Source of the DNA: a virus
Direction: 5' to 3' (one strand)
Length of the DNA stretch: 30,448 nucleotides
Virus record (IMG/VR): IMGVR_UViG_3300046007_004410
Coordinates: 1 to 30,448 of that record
Of the stretch, positions 16,544-23,869 are shown piece by piece. The notes beneath the pieces were generated by a model. It did not search any database and was not told where the DNA came from. It worked only from the letters and a program-made list of their open reading frames with translations. Each line of letters begins with the position of its first letter. Position 1 is the first letter of the stretch. A program made the translations under genes and the position numbers.

Positions 16544-16911
16544 TGGGTATGAATACCATAAGATATCATGATTTAAACGAAATCCAACGAAATGCTTTAT
16601 GTAATGGGTGTGGTGGTAAAGGTGGTTTGATTAACCCACCTGAGTTTCTGTTTAATGCTTCATGTAATCAGCATGACTTCTACTACTGGCGGGGAGGAAC
16701 CGAAGAAGATCGAAAAAAGGCTGATAATGACTTTTACGAGTTCATGAAACAAGACGCGGAAGCTGTAAATAATTGGCTAAAAAGAAAAACGTACAGACTA
16801 ATAGCTTGGACATATTATAAAGCTGTTAGGATTCACGGTAAAAAGTTTTTTTATTACTCTACTAAACAGAGAGATATTGCAGATTTACACGTTATTCTTG
16901 CTATCTCTTAG
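16543..16911 (+). CDS. Phospholipase A2-like protein
   Basis: The core CNGCGGKGG (20-28) followed by ASCNQHDFYYWRGG (39-52) matches the PLA2 pattern in which C-x-x-H-D holds the catalytic dyad (H44, D45), with cysteines C20, C23 and C41. Similar proteins, from memory, occur in many T4-like marine phages. It may act on host membrane lipids during lysis or entry. The start is uncertain: ATG 16543 or 16549, with no ribosome site before either. The 3' end overlaps the terminase gene on the other strand by 27 bases. Confidence 0.75.
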   Translation: MGMNTIRYHDLNEIQRNALCNGCGGKGGLINPPEFLFNASCNQHDFYYWRGGTEEDRKKADNDFYEFMKQDAEAVNNWLKRKTYRLIAWTYYKAVRIHGKKFFYYSTKQRDIADLHVILAIS

Positions 16912-17490
16912 CTGTTTTATAATGTCACTTGTACTCTCAGCATAAAAATTATTCTGAATATTAGTGACATTACCCACTTCAGGTTTGCTTACCTCTTCAA
17001 GTTTTTTCACTCTTGCTACGATATCACCGATATCTTTATATGTGCTACTCAATAATTTCATTGAACTATTAACCACCGAAATTAATTGACTATAACTACC
17101 TACCATTTCGGCGTCGGTGGGATTTATAACAATCTCATTAGTTATAGCGTCAATTACAAGCTTACCTTTAGTAACGGTATCCATCAGTGTAGACCTCATA
17201 GCCATGAAATCAGATTGTAGCATGTCCAATTGAAACATGTCACTTATGTTCATTGTGGGTAGATTTTTAACGTTACTTACTTCAGTTTCAATCACTTCCG
17301 TCATTTCTACTATTTGAGACTCAGCAATGTCAAAGCTCTTGGATATTTTTTCCATCTTAGACACTATCTTTTCAGCTTTAGGTCCGCTTTTTTCTAATGT
17401 CTTCTCTGTCTCTTCTATCTTGTCCTTAGTCTCTTGAACTTCTAAATTGAAATCGAAATTTAAGAAGTCTTCATCTTCTGCTAATGGCAT
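16885..17490 (-). CDS. Probable terminase small subunit, gp16-like
   Basis: A 201-aa, highly helical, acidic protein. The central part, with DFMAMRSTLMDTVTKGKLVI and PTDAEMVGSYSQLISVVNSSM, follows the pattern of the T4 gp16 core (arginine-containing helix, then a helix pair with a V/L-rich interface). N-terminal and C-terminal coiled coils flank it (about 18-70 and 150-175). Small terminases form rings that start DNA packaging. It is last in the minus-strand operon after gp15, the T4 order 15-16, which supports the call. No large terminase is next to it; the operon ends here. Ribosome site AAAGG. Confidence 0.6.
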   Translation of the reverse strand: MPLAEDEDFLNFDFNLEVQETKDKIEETEKTLEKSGPKAEKIVSKMEKISKSFDIAESQIVEMTEVIETEVSNVKNLPTMNISDMFQLDMLQSDFMAMRSTLMDTVTKGKLVIDAITNEIVINPTDAEMVGSYSQLISVVNSSMKLLSSTYKDIGDIVARVKKLEEVSKPEVGNVTNIQNNFYAESTSDIIKQLRDSKNNV

Positions 17491-17501
17491 GTTAACCTTT
17501 C

Positions 17502-18254
17502 TTATGGTGTTTGAGGGTCGTCTATGACCACATCATTTAAGCTATTATTCGAGTTTATTTCTACTGTATCATCGTCGAAAGCATGTTCTTCAATAGTCGT
17601 TACTACTTGTTTATTCGTTACGATATTAGCATACACATGTTCAATAACATTAGCATCTTTAATTGGTAAATATAAGTTTCCTCTAAGTACTAAATCAATA
17701 TCCGCTGTTATGATTCTAACATCGTCATCGGTACCTGTATCTATAGGATACTCATATGTTATTCCGCCTAATTCAATAGGTACTGAGGTAGTCTCTTCAA
17801 AATAGTCAAGTTCTTTGATTCGAATATTCATAGTGGGTCTAAACAAAGGTAGTATTTGTTCTACTATCATTGTTATATCGCTCATTGTTCTAGCCATGAT
17901 ATGTAACGTGTAGTTTAAATTCCACGATACTGAGCTGGGTTGGAACTTTACAGGTTTACCGTTTTCATCATAAAATACTTTTTTTGCATACTTACTGATA
18001 TCTCTTTGAGGTGCTCTATCCATAGAGTTGAATGATAATGCCATTTTAGGTAGCACGTTCTGTTCACCTGCACCAGCATTAGTGTAATCTTGTTCTATAA
18101 GATATATAGCTCGTTCACGTGTAGAAAAGACTATAGGTACATTAATTACTTTGAAGACGGTACCGTCTTCATTGTATCTAGGTACTTCTATATCGTTAAA
18201 TACTTTTAATAAGGAAGTAGTGTACTTCCTTATAGAATTATGATGAAAATACAT
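17502..18254 (-). CDS. Tail sheath stabiliser and completion protein, gp15-like
   Basis: Forms the ring that caps the finished tail and joins it to the neck. The order of segments matches T4 gp15: an N-terminal YFHHNSIRKYTTSLLKVFND with IEVPRYNEDG, then VINVPIVFSTRERAIY, VLPKMALSFNSMDRAPQRD, IVEQILPLFRP and a late DLVLRGNLYLPI. In T4 these read YFYNSSFRRYATLMGDLFSN and IVEQILPYFQP, from memory. Length (250) fits. The last 40 residues are acidic. Between gp19 and gp16 in one operon. Confidence 0.88.
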   Translation of the reverse strand: MYFHHNSIRKYTTSLLKVFNDIEVPRYNEDGTVFKVINVPIVFSTRERAIYLIEQDYTNAGAGEQNVLPKMALSFNSMDRAPQRDISKYAKKVFYDENGKPVKFQPSSVSWNLNYTLHIMARTMSDITMIVEQILPLFRPTMNIRIKELDYFEETTSVPIELGGITYEYPIDTGTDDDVRIITADIDLVLRGNLYLPIKDANVIEHVYANIVTNKQVVTTIEEHAFDDDTVEINSNNSLNDVVIDDPQTP

Positions 18255-18267
18255 GAGTACCCTTAAA

Positions 18268-18780
18268 TTAAGCTACTTTTTCCCAGTGTGAGAATGTGAT
18301 TGTTACTGTAAATTCAGAAACGGTGTCGTTTGAATCGTCAGCTAGATCAACCGAAGTGATGTTTGAAGGCCAGCAGTTATAAAGTTTATAAGCAGATGTT
18401 GTATTGTTTTGCCCATCTAATTGCTCAACTTGCATATCTACCATATATTCACCGTTGTACTGCCAGTTTCTATAGTGACTCTCAACGTCATCTATATTTC
18501 TCATCCAGTTTTCAAATGCGTTTCTGATGTCAAGCGCTTGTGTGTTGTAAAAAGTCACGTCCCATGTAGAACCGTAAGATTTATCACCTGCGATAGGTAG
18601 TTTTCTACCTTGGTTATATACATCAATTACCCCGATTGTAGCTTCAGGGATTGAAGATGCTTTACACAGGATATCCATTTGATCGTCAGAAGGACCCCCA
18701 CCTAAATGATTAAGCTTGATTCTGTACTTATTAGGTCTAGCACCCGCTTTAAGTTCTCTTTTGATATTTTGTAAACTCAT
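18268..18780 (-). CDS. Tail tube protein, gp19-like
   Basis: Major subunit of the inner tail tube. The signature ARPNKYRIKLNHLG, followed by CKASSIPEATIG, GRKLPIAGDKSYGSTWDVTF and the C-terminal EFTVTITFSHWE, match T4 gp19 (ARPNLFQVEISYLG, CKATALPAG, INVAGDRTFDDWTVTV, FEVTLALDYWE, from memory). Length 170 versus 163 in T4. First gene of the minus-strand operon, with AGGAGAG ribosome site and a late promoter (18817-18810 reading leftward). Confidence 0.92.
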   Translation of the reverse strand: MSLQNIKRELKAGARPNKYRIKLNHLGGGPSDDQMDILCKASSIPEATIGVIDVYNQGRKLPIAGDKSYGSTWDVTFYNTQALDIRNAFENWMRNIDDVESHYRNWQYNGEYMVDMQVEQLDGQNNTTSAYKLYNCWPSNITSVDLADDSNDTVSEFTVTITFSHWEKVA

Positions 18781-18809
18781 AAGAATCTCTCCTAGTTATT
18801 TGTTTATTG

Positions 18810-18821
18810 TATTTATAAATA
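18810..18821. promoter_or_regulatory. Bidirectional late promoter TATTTATAAATA
   Basis: TATAAATA reads rightward at 18814-18821 and leftward at 18817-18810, sharing four bases. The whole is within a 14-bp perfect palindrome (18809-18822, GTATTTATAAATAC). ATGs lie at 18847 (plus) and 18780 (minus), about 25-30 bases from each motif edge. No other TATAAATA occurs on the minus strand in the window by my reading. It therefore is the likely only promoter of the gp19-15-16 operon and also fires the baseplate genes. Confidence 0.75.
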
Positions 18822-18846
18822 CTTCAAAACTTATATAGGACTTAAC

Positions 18847-19359
18847 ATGGCAATGCACCCATTACAAGCTACTAAATCGATACTGTGGTATAAAGCCAAT
18901 ACGTTTTTCTTCAATGCTAAACCCACAAAAGGTAGTGATTTATGTGACCCGGATTTATTTGTGGCTTCAGTCAGCAATGTTGAAGTGCCGGATATAGCAA
19001 ACGAAAACTTTGAAGAGTACTATGCAGGGATGTGGTACACTGCACCTGGAAGAAACTCAATATATCAATTGACGGCTACATTTAAGAATCCTGAAGGTAT
19101 AAACTTATATGATAAATTCTCTCAGTATTTAGTAATGACACGTAAAGACTATTTCGACGACATTAAATGGACTCTTCAGGTAGACTCGGAGAACCCGGGT
19201 AGAAGTAGACATAGTATTTTATGGGTCGATAACGCTTTACTAGTGGGTGTAAGCAATATAACATTCGATCACTCATTAGATCAAATATTAGAATTCTCGG
19301 TTACATGGAAGTTCGCGCTGTTCAATGAAGAAGCTGCAATCGTAACCGGTGGACTATAA
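18847..19359 (+). CDS. Tail tube-fold protein, possibly gp54-like
   Basis: A 170-aa protein distinct from gp19 but with the tube protein profile: an early F-x-V-x-V-P loop (VEVPD), an aromatic-rich middle with APGRNSIYQLTATFKNPE (a P-x-R pattern like the gp54 segment before its strand), and a final ILEFSVTWKFALF strand like gp19's closing strand. It may be the tube initiator on the gp48-type cap, or a second tube protein. The domain is single, shorter than T4 gp54 (320 aa). Late motif at 18814. Confidence 0.6.
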   Translation: MAMHPLQATKSILWYKANTFFFNAKPTKGSDLCDPDLFVASVSNVEVPDIANENFEEYYAGMWYTAPGRNSIYQLTATFKNPEGINLYDKFSQYLVMTRKDYFDDIKWTLQVDSENPGRSRHSILWVDNALLVGVSNITFDHSLDQILEFSVTWKFALFNEEAAIVTGGL

Positions 19360-19391: not shown

Positions 19392-20096
19392 ATGCTACCA
19401 ATAGAAAATTCATATAGTTACAGTACAGTTATAGGTAACGGTACTAAAGTAAAGTTCAGACCTTGGAAGACAAAAGACGAAAAGGCGTTCTTAACATTTG
19501 TAGAATCTACGGATACTGTCACAGATGATGATTTTTTCAATTATCTATTAAAGCCATGTATGGAGAATCCAAACATATATATGACTTCAGCGGACATTCA
19601 GAAACTTTTGATTGAGATCCGTAAAGTATCTATGGGTGAAACATTCGAAATGAAGTTCATTTGTAAGAGTGACACGTGTGGTAAAGTAAATGAGATCGAG
19701 GTTGAATTTGATGATATCGTTGACTACAGATTAGACACTGTTAAAGAGTTCTCTTTACCTGAAGCAGAGATTAAGGTTACTTTCGGTCAGATAAAAAATG
19801 TTGACTTCTTTAAAGAAAAATCTAAGGGTAAATCGGCAATTGAAGTATCATTCATAGAAATGATCCTAAGAATTGAAAAGATCGAATACAAAGGTGAAGT
19901 TTATGATAGCTTCAAATACGATGAAGTGTATCAATTTATAGACAATTTAGACGTTAAGATATTTGATAAACTTATCGCTTATTACAGTGAGAATAAATCT
20001 AATATTAAAATCGAAGGTACATTTAAGTGTGCGTTTTGTAACTCAGATAACGCATTCTATTTTGATGAGATCCCCAATTTTTTAGCGGGATGGTAA
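19392..20096 (+). CDS. gp26-like baseplate protein / tape-measure chaperone
   Basis: A 234-aa protein with the T4 gp26-type pattern (Pfam T4 baseplate family): an early GTKVKFRPWKTKDEKAFLTF, then IRKVSMGETFEMKFICKSD, paired cysteines C82.. CGKVNEIEVEFDDI, and a final CAFCNSDNAF metal-like pair. In T4, gp26 and gp51 are needed to build the baseplate hub. Position right before the tape measure parallels lambda gpG or P2 gpE. Its 3' end has a -1 frameshift signal (20078-20123), so ribosomes would make this protein and a 290-aa extended form. Own late promoter. Confidence 0.82.
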   Translation: MLPIENSYSYSTVIGNGTKVKFRPWKTKDEKAFLTFVESTDTVTDDDFFNYLLKPCMENPNIYMTSADIQKLLIEIRKVSMGETFEMKFICKSDTCGKVNEIEVEFDDIVDYRLDTVKEFSLPEAEIKVTFGQIKNVDFFKEKSKGKSAIEVSFIEMILRIEKIEYKGEVYDSFKYDEVYQFIDNLDVKIFDKLIAYYSENKSNIKIEGTFKCAFCNSDNAFYFDEIPNFLAGW

Positions 20097-20123
20097 GCGA
20101 AGACTCTCTCACTTCGCTTTACC
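20078..20123 (+). promoter_or_regulatory. Programmed -1 ribosomal frameshift signal
   Basis: The zero-frame codons AAT TTT TTA contain T_TTT_TTA (20078-20084), the classic X_XXY_YYZ slip site. After a 7-nt spacer comes a stem of 11 pairs: GGTAAGCGAAG (20092-20102) with CTTCGCTTTACC (20112-20123), one bulged T, loop of 9. The zero-frame TAA (20094-20096) lies in the stem. In -1 frame, reading continues to TAA 20261-20263. Confidence 0.8.
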
Positions 20124-20263
20124 AGGTATATCATAATTTGAAATATTTCGGTCATTACTCTATATTTGAAGTTGACGAAATGTTACCATACGAGAGGGGC
20201 ATTTTCTTCAGTTTGACTAAGAAAACAATAGAAGAGATAAACAAAACTAGAGGTCAGAGGTAA
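20090..20263 (+). CDS. -1 frame extension (gp51-position tail assembly chaperone part)
   Basis: An open frame -1 to the gp26-like gene. From the slip site it gives 59 codons; as a free gene from ATG 20090 it would be 57 aa but with no proper ribosome site. The product (HNLKYFGHYSIFEVDEM, LPYERGIFFSLTKKTIEEIN) is helical, like the small C-terminal part of tail assembly chaperones where an aromatic-rich EVDxMxxYER segment is common. It ends 6 bases before the tape measure gene. In T4 the corresponding slot is gene 51. The fusion would be 231 + 59 = 290 residues. Confidence 0.75.
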   Translation: MVSEDSLTSLYQVYHNLKYFGHYSIFEVDEMLPYERGIFFSLTKKTIEEINKTRGQR

Positions 20264-20269
20264 ACAGTT

Positions 20270-23200
20270 ATGAATATAAAGAACTTTAATTCTAACACAG
20301 GAACACATAAAACATCAAGTGGTAAAGACCTTTCTGCTTTAGCACCTGATGCACCTCAAATAGAGAAAATATCTGAACAATTAACCGAACTAGAAGAGCA
20401 AATCGAACAATTATCCACTAAAGACTCTTATAGTCGAGAATCTAAACTACTTGAAGCAGTTGATAGATTAACTGAAGCAGTAGAAAAAAAAGAAGATGAT
20501 AAACCAACGGTTAAACCTACATTTAATCCTGTAGCTAAAAAAACTAAACGAGCTAAAAAAGCCGAACCTACAGCACAAGCAAGTACAAGCACATCTGAGG
20601 ACACAACAAAAGAAGCTGAAGCTATCGTATCTCAAATAAAGCATAGCAAAGATAAAAGAGGTATACACAAAAGTGCCAATTCTCTTAATATTATGCAGAC
20701 AGCTACATTACAGGATTTTGCTCAGTTAAATGACATGTTAGGTAAAAAGATAGATGACAGTCTATCTACAGAGACTCCTAATATAAAAATGCCTAAACAT
20801 GTATTCACTGAACAAGAGAAAAAATTACTACTAAAGGCCTCAAAACAGTCATCTACATCTCTCAAAGAAATATCAGGTACACTGAAGAAAATCCACGAGG
20901 ATATGATTGACGAACAAAACACATCAATAGAGCTTCCTAAAAGGGCAAATAACCCGGATTGGGCTAAAACCAGTAGAGAGTCAAATAGACCAGAGATCAC
21001 ATCACCATACAGTAAAAATGGACAAGATCAGAACGGTTCAGGTGGGGGTTTACTTGCCGGTGCAGGAGGTGCTTTAGGTGCTTCTTGGTTATGTAGAAAG
21101 TACCCGGAAAAATGTAGAAAGTTAGGACTTGGGGGTCCTTTAGGGGCGGGGGACAACAAACCTGGAGGTAAACATCCTGCTGGAGTTGCTCACTTACCTA
21201 CAGATAAACCTGAGATGGAAGGTGGTAAATTCTCTAAGTATGCCAAATACGGTAAAGCGGGTCTTGCTATAGGTGGGTTGGCTTATGGTTATAATGCTCT
21301 GTTTGGTGGTTCTTCAAATGGGGGGGTAAGCGGTATAGGTGACTTTTCGGCTGGCACACCTGCTAAAGACTTCAGTTCGAAACCTGCACCTGTAAGTTAT
21401 ACACCACCGGCAGTGTCAAAACCGACTTATGATCCTTCATTGTATAAACCGGATAATGGTAGTTTAACTAGCAAATATCAACCGAAAACAACCGGTAATC
21501 TATTACCTCCACCTCCATTATTGACATCGGGTACATCAAACGCTAACATAGGTTCTAGAGGTAATGTCAGAGGGACACTTGAAGATGCTGTTATAAGAGC
21601 AGATAACGGTGTTAACTTATCAGGTCTCAATAGTGGCATGAAACATAACTTGACAGGTATGGCTAATGAGTACTATGCTAGAACTGGCAAAAGATTGGTT
21701 GTCACGTCGGGTTATAGATCGATGGAAAAACAATCGAAGCTGTTCAATGAGGCTGTTAGGAAATATGGGTCAGTGGCTGCCGCTAGAAAATGGGTTGCCC
21801 CTCCGGGTAGCTCAATGCACAATCACGGGTTAGCTGTAGACATAGATTCTAAACAACTCAATAAAGCTGATTCAATGAGGCTATTGTCAAAATGGGGGTT
21901 TCACAGACCTATACATGAGAAATGGCATATGGAACCTCAAGGAATTGATAGAGGTAGCGTTCTAAAAGGTGGAAAAGCTAATGTAAGTAAATTGGGACCT
22001 TCTAAGAAGACTGCCGCTATAGCTGGAGCAGGTGCTGGGATGGCTGTAGGTTCTTCGCTAAAACCTAAACCTGAAAATGAACTTAAAGCTCCGGGTACTA
22101 AAGACCTCTCAGGACATGAAAAAGGTGCTAAATCGGCTCTTCAACAACCTAGTACTATAAATGGCGATCAAAGTACTATCAAAGGTGAATATAAAGACGA
22201 CTGGAATCAGCTTCCAGCGTACAGTGAGTTCAAAGGTGATAATGGGTTTGACGGTCCTAGAAACAAAATGAGCACTAACTATGCTACAGCTAGTCATAAC
22301 CCGGATGAATATGAAGGACCTGCTTATATGCAGAAGTTCGATATGGGTAAATTCTTGGGTATGACACCTGAAGATCAAAAATCTGCTTTAGGTGCAAATG
22401 CCGCAGCAAATAATACAGGAACACCTTCCAAAGGTAGCGACTCTAGTATATCGGATTACTTAGTACCTGCAGGTGCCGCAGTAGCTGGAGCAGGTGGATT
22501 GTATGCCGGTAAAAAGTATCTAGATAAACGTAAAGCTAATGCAGGTACAGTGGAAAAACCTACACCCAAAACAGATAAACCATTGAGTACATTTGATAAG
22601 CTTAAACAGTCTGCATCGGATAAATTGAGTAACGCTAAGAATAGCACTTCCAAATTCTTTACTAAACAGTACGAGAGAATACCTGAAAAGTACAGAACTA
22701 ATCTAAAGAACAATACTAAAGCTATTTCTAGTAAAGTGTCGTCTGCTTATAACAGCACAAAAACAGTTATAGCTAACAACATACCGTCAAAAGGAGCTCT
22801 TGGTCTAGGTGCACTTGGAACAGGACTTGAAGTCTATAACGGTTACGACGCCCACAGTAAAGCAACGAATGAACATGGTAGGGACACTGCTATAGCAGGT
22901 ACAGGTGGTAGTATTGCAGGTGGTATGGCAGGTGCTAGTTTAGGTGCTAGCGTCGGTTCTGTAGTACCTGGTGCAGGTACTATCGTAGGGGGTATCGTAG
23001 GGGGTATAGGAGGGAGTATCCTAGGTGAGAAAGGTACTACTGCTCTTATGAACAGATTTATGACTAAAGGTGAAGATTTTGTACATGACAGTCTTAAAAA
23101 TAAAACAGCTGAAGAGAAAAAGTCTTACCTAGTTAGATCAATATTACCCGAGCTCAAACGAGTCGAAGATGATAGATCAATCAAGTTAGTGAATGACTAC

Positions 23201-23869
23201 ATAAAAAATACACTTGACCCACAAATAGCTAAAGATAAAAAGGCAATTTCAGATAAGTTAAGAAAACAAGCACTGAATGGATATGGGGATAAAAAATTAC
23301 CTACGTTAACACCTCCAAAATCACCTTTCGAGACAGGTTATAGTGAGTTCGAATCTGAAATGCTAGATTTAGGACCTCAATGGACTGATATTGGAAACAA
23401 ATATAAAGGTGATTCAGGATATATTAAGTTTCAAAAAGAGTTTATGGAGATGGACCGAGACTCCCAACAAGCTATCAGAGATCAAAATACGGACAAAGCG
23501 TCGAAAGAATTATTACGAAGATTCGATAAAGATGTTAAGAAAACAAGGGACGGTATCATAAAACAAAGCACTGATATTCAAACAGGTGTCATACCTTCAA
23601 ACAATCCTATAGGGTCTACTATTAGTACACCTGAAATGATAGTTGAAAAAGGAGGATCTGAATCATCTAAGATCCAGATAAATAGTAACACTAAGGCACT
23701 GGCAAAAGAATCTGCTACAGAGACACAAGGTGCAACGAACAACGTTACTAATATTCATAAAAGTGATGCCAATACAGGTGCTAAAACTGAACAAGTCGTT
23801 ACTAGAAACCACTTTTCTAAAGACGACTCAGTGGAACCTTTATTAGGTTATATGATGGCAAATAGATAA
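20270..23869 (+). CDS. Tape measure protein with M15 (VanY-type) D,D-peptidase domain
   Basis: 1199 residues, longest gene here. A coiled-coil N-terminus (about 30-75) leads into Ala/Lys-rich helices and several Gly/Ala-rich hydrophobic segments (about 258-275, 330-350, 580-595, 735-752, and a long glycine zipper at about 870-925), as in tape measures that insert into the membrane. At about 440-560 lies an M15 metallopeptidase domain: SGYRS (480-484), H517 and D524 in HNHGLAVDID, and H553 in KWHMEP, the zinc ligands. It would cut peptidoglycan stems during DNA entry. Position after the chaperones and before gp48 fits T4 gp29. A long, low-complexity protein, so the tape measure role is inferred. 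Confidence 0.82.
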   Translation: MNIKNFNSNTGTHKTSSGKDLSALAPDAPQIEKISEQLTELEEQIEQLSTKDSYSRESKLLEAVDRLTEAVEKKEDDKPTVKPTFNPVAKKTKRAKKAEPTAQASTSTSEDTTKEAEAIVSQIKHSKDKRGIHKSANSLNIMQTATLQDFAQLNDMLGKKIDDSLSTETPNIKMPKHVFTEQEKKLLLKASKQSSTSLKEISGTLKKIHEDMIDEQNTSIELPKRANNPDWAKTSRESNRPEITSPYSKNGQDQNGSGGGLLAGAGGALGASWLCRKYPEKCRKLGLGGPLGAGDNKPGGKHPAGVAHLPTDKPEMEGGKFSKYAKYGKAGLAIGGLAYGYNALFGGSSNGGVSGIGDFSAGTPAKDFSSKPAPVSYTPPAVSKPTYDPSLYKPDNGSLTSKYQPKTTGNLLPPPPLLTSGTSNANIGSRGNVRGTLEDAVIRADNGVNLSGLNSGMKHNLTGMANEYYARTGKRLVVTSGYRSMEKQSKLFNEAVRKYGSVAAARKWVAPPGSSMHNHGLAVDIDSKQLNKADSMRLLSKWGFHRPIHEKWHMEPQGIDRGSVLKGGKANVSKLGPSKKTAAIAGAGAGMAVGSSLKPKPENELKAPGTKDLSGHEKGAKSALQQPSTINGDQSTIKGEYKDDWNQLPAYSEFKGDNGFDGPRNKMSTNYATASHNPDEYEGPAYMQKFDMGKFLGMTPEDQKSALGANAAANNTGTPSKGSDSSISDYLVPAGAAVAGAGGLYAGKKYLDKRKANAGTVEKPTPKTDKPLSTFDKLKQSASDKLSNAKNSTSKFFTKQYERIPEKYRTNLKNNTKAISSKVSSAYNSTKTVIANNIPSKGALGLGALGTGLEVYNGYDAHSKATNEHGRDTAIAGTGGSIAGGMAGASLGASVGSVVPGAGTIVGGIVGGIGGSILGEKGTTALMNRFMTKGEDFVHDSLKNKTAEEKKSYLVRSILPELKRVEDDRSIKLVNDYIKNTLDPQIAKDKKAISDKLRKQALNGYGDKKLPTLTPPKSPFETGYSEFESEMLDLGPQWTDIGNKYKGDSGYIKFQKEFMEMDRDSQQAIRDQNTDKASKELLRRFDKDVKKTRDGIIKQSTDIQTGVIPSNNPIGSTISTPEMIVEKGGSESSKIQINSNTKALAKESATETQGATNNVTNIHKSDANTGAKTEQVVTRNHFSKDDSVEPLLGYMMANR

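Follow-up and report, generated by a model that had tools for sequence, protein, structure and literature searches.

In phage lambda, two forms of a tail assembly chaperone, G and GT, are made by −1 frameshifting ahead of the tape-measure gene, the short form acting on the tape measure and the long form recruiting tube subunits (PMC5009743). P2 E/E′, from a phage with a contractile tail, likewise has a −1 extension ahead of the tape-measure gene, reached through the heptamer T_TTT_TTG. Slippage of this sort is the usual route to the two chaperone forms among long-tailed phages. The 2016 review that describes the lambda system treated T4 as the exception to tail-chaperone frameshifting (PMC5009743), a 2010 review listed T4 gp51 as essential and of unknown function (PMC3004832), and Sullivan et al. 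(2010) reported cyanophage gp51 proteins without the first ~200 residues (PMC3037559), which a frameshift would explain. More recent papers credit Vladimirov, Gautam and Davidson (Virology 2022) with identifying T4 gp26 and gp51 as short and long chaperones, and cite the same work for poly-T slip signals in the TAC-N genes of T4-like phages (PMC10274946, PMC12846349). Here we analyse a 30,448-nt stretch of viral DNA (IMG/VR record IMGVR_UViG_3300046007_004410, hereafter the window), for which a preliminary description had proposed a −1 frameshift joining a gp26-like chaperone to a gp51-like extension. Its link from gp26/gp51 to the general tail assembly chaperones was not new since, as the 2022 work is given in the citing papers, the family-level claim was already known. 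What the present analysis offers is the breadth of conservation, two kinds of stimulatory element, evidence that the two-gene form arose more than once, and the window's place beside one clade that has it.

Both T4 proteins match PF12322 over its whole length (gp26, 8.8e-64; gp51, 3.9e-52), and the gp51 tail is found on gp51 alone. Judged from these matches, T4 gp26 and gp51 are a short and a long form encoded by two genes. T4 gp26 ends at the would-be slip point (GLKEFFELL), and the two Phe codons there are the non-slippery TTC TTT in both T4 and X20. Genes 26 and 51 had been pictured as separate genes sharing the slot ahead of the tape measure, but they are not contiguous in T4: gene 26 lies on the opposite strand, and genes 27 and 28 stand between 51 and 29, and gp51 is a paralogue of gp26 over its full length with the extension added. 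T4 and the other Straboviridae that we looked at differ from the window, which belongs to the same family of a short form and a long form with gp51 tail (PF12322, PHROG 150/634), in having two genes on opposite strands instead of one gene with U_UUU_UUA. The window resembles the cyanophage and pelagiphage locus (Kyanoviridae, e.g. P-SSM2), which has an in-phase T_TTT_TTN near the gp26 end, the gp51 tail in the −1 frame and, in many cases, a hairpin at nearly the same spacing. These loci usually carry T_TTT_TTC and an upstream GAGGG, whereas the window has T_TTT_TTA and no Shine-Dalgarno-like element, and its gp26 is about 18–27% identical to those of aligned relatives.

The window's gp26-type gene (19392..20096, plus strand) follows a Shine-Dalgarno sequence, AAAGGAA (duplex −5.6 kcal/mol), and encodes the 234-residue putative short form (TAC-N). 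The codon phase at its end, ATC CCC AAT TTT TTA GCG GGA TGG TAA, confirms that the slippery heptamer T_TTT_TTA (20078..20084, plus strand) lies in the zero frame (AAT TTT TTA), at the position matched by T_TTT_TTN in relatives, and it begins 16 nt ahead of the zero-frame stop TAA (20094..20096). The −1 frame is open from 20069, and re-reading the frames upheld the 59 codons first described beyond the heptamer (20084–20260) and their TAA stop (20261–20263). The resulting extension, the gp51 tail (20084..20263, plus strand), ends six bases ahead of the ATG of the tape-measure gene (20270..23869, plus strand), and gp26 plus extension would form a long protein (TAC-NC) of about 290 residues. A spacer of 6 nt (20085..20090), or 7 nt with the terminal U-A pair left out of the stem, leads to a candidate stimulatory hairpin of 12 bp with one bulge and a 9-nt loop (20091..20124; −14.3 kcal/mol). 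The preliminary description had correctly recognized a stem-loop with one bulge that includes the zero-frame stop, though its dimensions (11 bp, 20092–20123, 7 nt from the heptamer) needed adjusting.

Each of these elements is uncommon in the window. In-phase XXXYYYZ heptamers occur 36 times in the 8375 codons of its genes (0.0043 per codon), which gives a chance of about 4% for any such heptamer within the 9-codon overlap and of 0.2% for one with six T; none of 1042 −1-frame open runs inside its genes reaches 59 codons, and only 38 of 4344 46-nt windows (<1%) fold as stably as the hairpin. A second in-phase heptamer, T_TTT_TTC, is present within gp26 (19532–19538, GAT TTT TTC), where the −1 frame closes after 27 codons, and is probably due to chance.

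The zero-frame protein matches PF12322 (T4 base plate protein; 2.9e-23, model positions 4–218 of 219) and phrog_150 (2.1e-22), and the −1 peptide is recognized by phrog_634 (4.6e-11), the family of the baseplate hub assembly catalyst gp51, as well as by phrog_23772. The phrog_150 profile spans both frames, its N-terminal 232 positions matching gp26 and its C-terminal 47 positions matching the −1 peptide, so both halves are parts of one long protein family. The −1 peptide also shares the P-x-E-R core conserved in the gp51 tail and is predicted, with modest confidence, to be helical. By these similarities it is confirmed as a real homologue of gp51. The window's gp26 found no match in the PDB by sequence profile or by fold (model pLDDT 85.5), which gives no sign of a fold shared with lambda G or HK97 gp13, and no protein similarity to P2 E/E′ was seen in family searches, nor homology to lambda G/GT detected. 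The P2 heptamer differs in its last base and in its spacing to the stop, and lambda differs in its heptamer (G_GGA_AAG) and long T domain (about 140 codons).

To build a set of 156 non-redundant loci, we combined phage records with the results of two IMG/VR scans based on alignments; the set covers Kyanoviridae, phages of Pelagibacter, Caulobacter and Rhizobium, and contigs from IMG/VR. Alignment-based patterns alone succeeded in finding relatives in IMG/VR, where single-protein searches with the window's gp26 and gp5 returned no close ones. An in-phase T_TTT_TTN at the same point, with the extension in the −1 frame, is present in 155 of the 156 loci, and its last base is C in 115, T in 27, A in 11 and G in 2; OLIVR5, RL38J1 and AG-345-D19 also have it. 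The gp26 stop in relatives usually lies 10 nt past the heptamer start. The codon ahead of the two Phe/Leu codons encodes Ser, Asp, Ala, Asn or Gly, yet ends in T in 155/155 loci, compared with 55% at other sites of these genes, and for the first Phe all 155 use TTT (75% elsewhere). When one gene was kept per cluster at 45–60% identity and each gene's own codon use was applied, this wobble bias persisted across 18–44 groups (log10 P −8.2 to −18.9). The sole exception to the heptamer, L073, has lost ~105 bp (a size estimated against relatives) that include the gp26 end. In L073 the deletion (1480–1515) joins mid-gp26 to the extension, with the slip site gone, and may be an assembly artefact.

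Across this large collection of phages related to T4, most of them marine, the frameshift arrangement is thus nearly universal, and current annotations often shorten or leave out the gp51 tail. Among the deposited records, KF156338 and OR003938 lack the extension and MH412654 and OQ984149 have it shortened; all four could be re-annotated as frameshift products.

We searched for kin of the window with four gp51 tails, its own and those of Va1, phiKT1024 and CPt10. The window's nearest kin by gp51 tail are L185/L186 (48% identical, as measured against L185), L187, L188–L191, Campylobacter phages and a Campylobacterales MAG. All nearest kin that we examined, including Va1, L185, L187, L188, L190, L196 and CPt10, have a separate gp26 and a full-length in-frame gp51, arranged in tandem ahead of the tape measure or, in CPt10, ~10 kb apart. 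Va1, phiKT1024 and CPt10 are closest to the window by gp26 domain, by gp51 tail and, for Va1, by gene order, but unlike the window have the full-length gp51 as second gene. Because the nearest kin examined are all of the two-gene form, the frameshift state of the window's lineage rests on one sequence.

These kin also raise the question of whether the extension is a relic, with the long form supplied by a full-length gp51 elsewhere in the genome and slippage without a role. Besides the two-gene form of these kin, the fragmentary nature of the window's record and the distance of ~10 kb between the CPt10 genes speak for this reading. The 30-kb record nevertheless holds much of the tail module with a single PF12322 match, nothing interrupts the −1 ORF, which is well conserved and takes exactly the place of gp51 in Va1, and both heptamer and hairpin are retained, which together make a relic unlikely.

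The intact heptamer is absent from the two-gene phages T4, X20, Va1, phiKT1024, L185, L188 and L190. Loss of the slip site is not a strict rule of the two-gene form, however: contig L187 (366–1756), alone among the two-gene relatives looked at, keeps an intact heptamer (GAT TTT TTC) near the gp26 end, with the −1 frame closed ahead of gp51. In Va1 (L003, 3618–4349) gp51 lies in the −1 frame relative to gp26, and that frame is already open at the point where the slip would once have occurred; the codons there are GGA TTC TTC, and a slip at this point would fuse both full-length genes. In L194 (1571–1759), which is similar to Campylobacter phages, an extra base (TTTTACAG against TTTTCAG) splits the long gp51 into two frames and may be a sequencing error or a mutation.

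Trees built on the gp26-type domain place the Straboviridae pair in a clade by itself (98/94; 98/91), and a topology in which every gp26 paralogue goes back to one origin was rejected (p-AU 3.5e-4); placing all gp51 copies in one clade was not rejected (p 0.19). The window clusters with the Va1-like copies of gp26 (98/98; 100/99 without long rows), and a constraint uniting Va1-like gp26 with Va1-like gp51 to the exclusion of the window was rejected (p-AU 0.027 and 0.011, with gp51 on long branches). In the tree of tails, the window is sister to all Va1-like gp51 tails, with support of 98/94 when it is included in the group and 88/78 for those tails on their own. By these trees, the two-gene arrangement has at least two origins, and the window is placed as the frameshifting sister of the second two-gene clade; it may have branched off ahead of the duplication or have lost the second copy later. 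As far as could be checked, the double origin and this sister position are the newer results. Since the window's gp26 joins the gp26 side of the two-gene clade and does not fall outside the pair, phages of this kind might even switch repeatedly between frameshifting and duplication as ways of adjusting how much of each form is made, the window's ancestor having had the pair and its lineage having kept or regained the frameshift and lost the full-length gp51, a course of events that we raise tentatively and consider somewhat doubtful. Given the window's position beside a two-gene clade, the phages on either side offer a natural test of whether slippage and separate genes are interchangeable as means of controlling the ratio of the two forms.

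Coding in the −1 frame bears on whether the extension could instead be a separate 57-residue gp51, started at ATG 20090 by termination-reinitiation at the gp26 stop. This ATG overlaps the stop (ATGGTAA), an ATG lies five codons past the heptamer start in 79/156 relatives, and the annotation of cyanophage records shows gp51 as a short gene of its own. It is, however, the only near free start in the window, and it sits at the foot of the hairpin without a Shine-Dalgarno sequence (duplex +1.3 kcal/mol), bearing out the earlier remark that the −1 ORF has no good ribosome site. In 55 relatives the first ATG of the −1 frame is 20–21 codons in, and in 14 there is none within 26 codons; it is the heptamer and not a start codon that is conserved. 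Of 109 TTTTTTC loci, 108 have Arg or Gln at the first −1 codon, which in the window lies upstream of ATG 20090, and each of the four CGN codons is in use; the zero-frame residue overlapping it, by contrast, may be Gly, Ala, Ser, Val or Asn. This indicates that the −1 frame is translated ahead of any start codon. In addition, the tail and a gp26-like domain make up one chain in T4 gp51 and in the other long forms of two-gene phages, and on this evidence we regard a free-standing gp51 as very unlikely.

Potential stimulators of ribosomal slippage are found on both sides of the heptamer. Shortly upstream, most relatives carry the Shine-Dalgarno-like GAGGG, whose Glu codon is GAG in 106/126 loci against 29% elsewhere (106:20 vs 1016:2511, p = 1e-36) and whose duplex with the anti-Shine-Dalgarno averages −7.9 kcal/mol, compared with −2.2 kcal/mol elsewhere in gp26. 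The arrangement is similar to that of E. coli dnaX. No such element was found upstream of the heptamer in the window (duplex −2.7). Downstream, an 11-bp hairpin 5 nt after the heptamer is common to about half of the equally spaced loci (69/130 with at least 9/11 pairs). In a 50-sequence sample, partly hand-picked from the cyanophage group, 78% of cells pair, against 25–43% with one arm slid, and 8 of the 11 pairs are changed on both sides (U-A, A-U and G-C at one position), a level at or above nearly all shuffles, which leave relatedness in. RNAalifold found no common structure across all 130 equally spaced loci, and loci outside the cyanophage subgroup seem, by eye, to carry different hairpins at the same place. 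The 11-bp hairpin is a conserved feature of the cyanophage subgroup. The window's own hairpin lies at nearly the same spacing as the covarying one and has z-scores of −2.0 to −2.5 in three contexts and of −4.9 on the 50 nt beginning 12 nt after the heptamer start, among the most significant of the loci compared. Its loop, ACUCUCUCA (20103–20111), could pair with GAGAGG ~80 nt downstream (about 20190–20196) as a possible pseudoknot. Slippage of the RNA polymerase on the T run, which is conserved at six T or more, is highly improbable as a substitute for ribosomal frameshifting, since six T is short for bacterial RNA polymerase slippage, the run sits in one and the same codon phase in each of the 155 loci, and the upstream Shine-Dalgarno-like element and downstream hairpin lie at ribosomal spacings.

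Conservation in relatives, coding constraint in the −1 frame and the putative stimulators strongly support slippage at exactly T_TTT_TTA. Taken as a whole, the locus is best explained by one gene that makes a short and a long chaperone through programmed −1 frameshifting at U_UUU_UUA, which we consider highly probable; that slippage occurs in the window's phage we infer from sequence anatomy, homology and conservation. Most ribosomes would terminate at 20094 to give the short form (gp26, TAC-N). The hairpin, 6–7 nt downstream, would hold up a minority, which would slip back one base on U_UUU_UUA with tRNA-Phe in the P site and tRNA-Leu in the A site, pass the gp26 stop and read 59 further codons to give the long form (gp26 plus gp51 tail, TAC-NC). 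The slippage rate would probably lie between a few and about ten per cent. Tandem slippage on AAU UUU UUA predicts Asn-Phe-Leu-Ser-Gly-Met as the main junction of the long form; Asn-Phe-Phe-Ser-Gly-Met, the junction originally predicted, would be a minor product only, a ranking based on what is known of the HIV-1 site. By analogy with lambda G/GT, from which the assembly role of the two forms is drawn, many short copies would coat the tape-measure protein encoded next door, and a few long copies would recruit tail-tube subunits through the extension. The window thus appears to be a divergent example of an already-known chaperone frameshift, and its first reading was largely right, correct in its core.

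The neighbouring genes belong to a T4-type tail, with a sheath stabiliser (PF16724), tube (phrog_45), tape measure (phrog_16823, phrog_794), tube cap (phrog_230) and gp5-type hub. The gene order is tube-type genes (18268–19359), gp26, the extension and the tape measure, so the extension lies directly ahead of the tape-measure gene and next to tail-tube genes, the same place as in lambda G/GT and P2 E/E′, as had been proposed. The sheath stabiliser and a gp19-type tube gene are on the minus strand (16885–18780). Divergent from these minus-strand tail genes, a possibly tube-like plus-strand gene (18847–19359; phrog_25014, weak phrog_45) heads the run of gp26 and tape-measure genes. The tape-measure protein has an internal VanY-type D-Ala-D-Ala carboxypeptidase domain at residues 454–532 (PF02557, 1.1e-14), and Va1 and phiKT1024 have a gene annotated as ‘putative peptidase’ where the window has its tape-measure gene.
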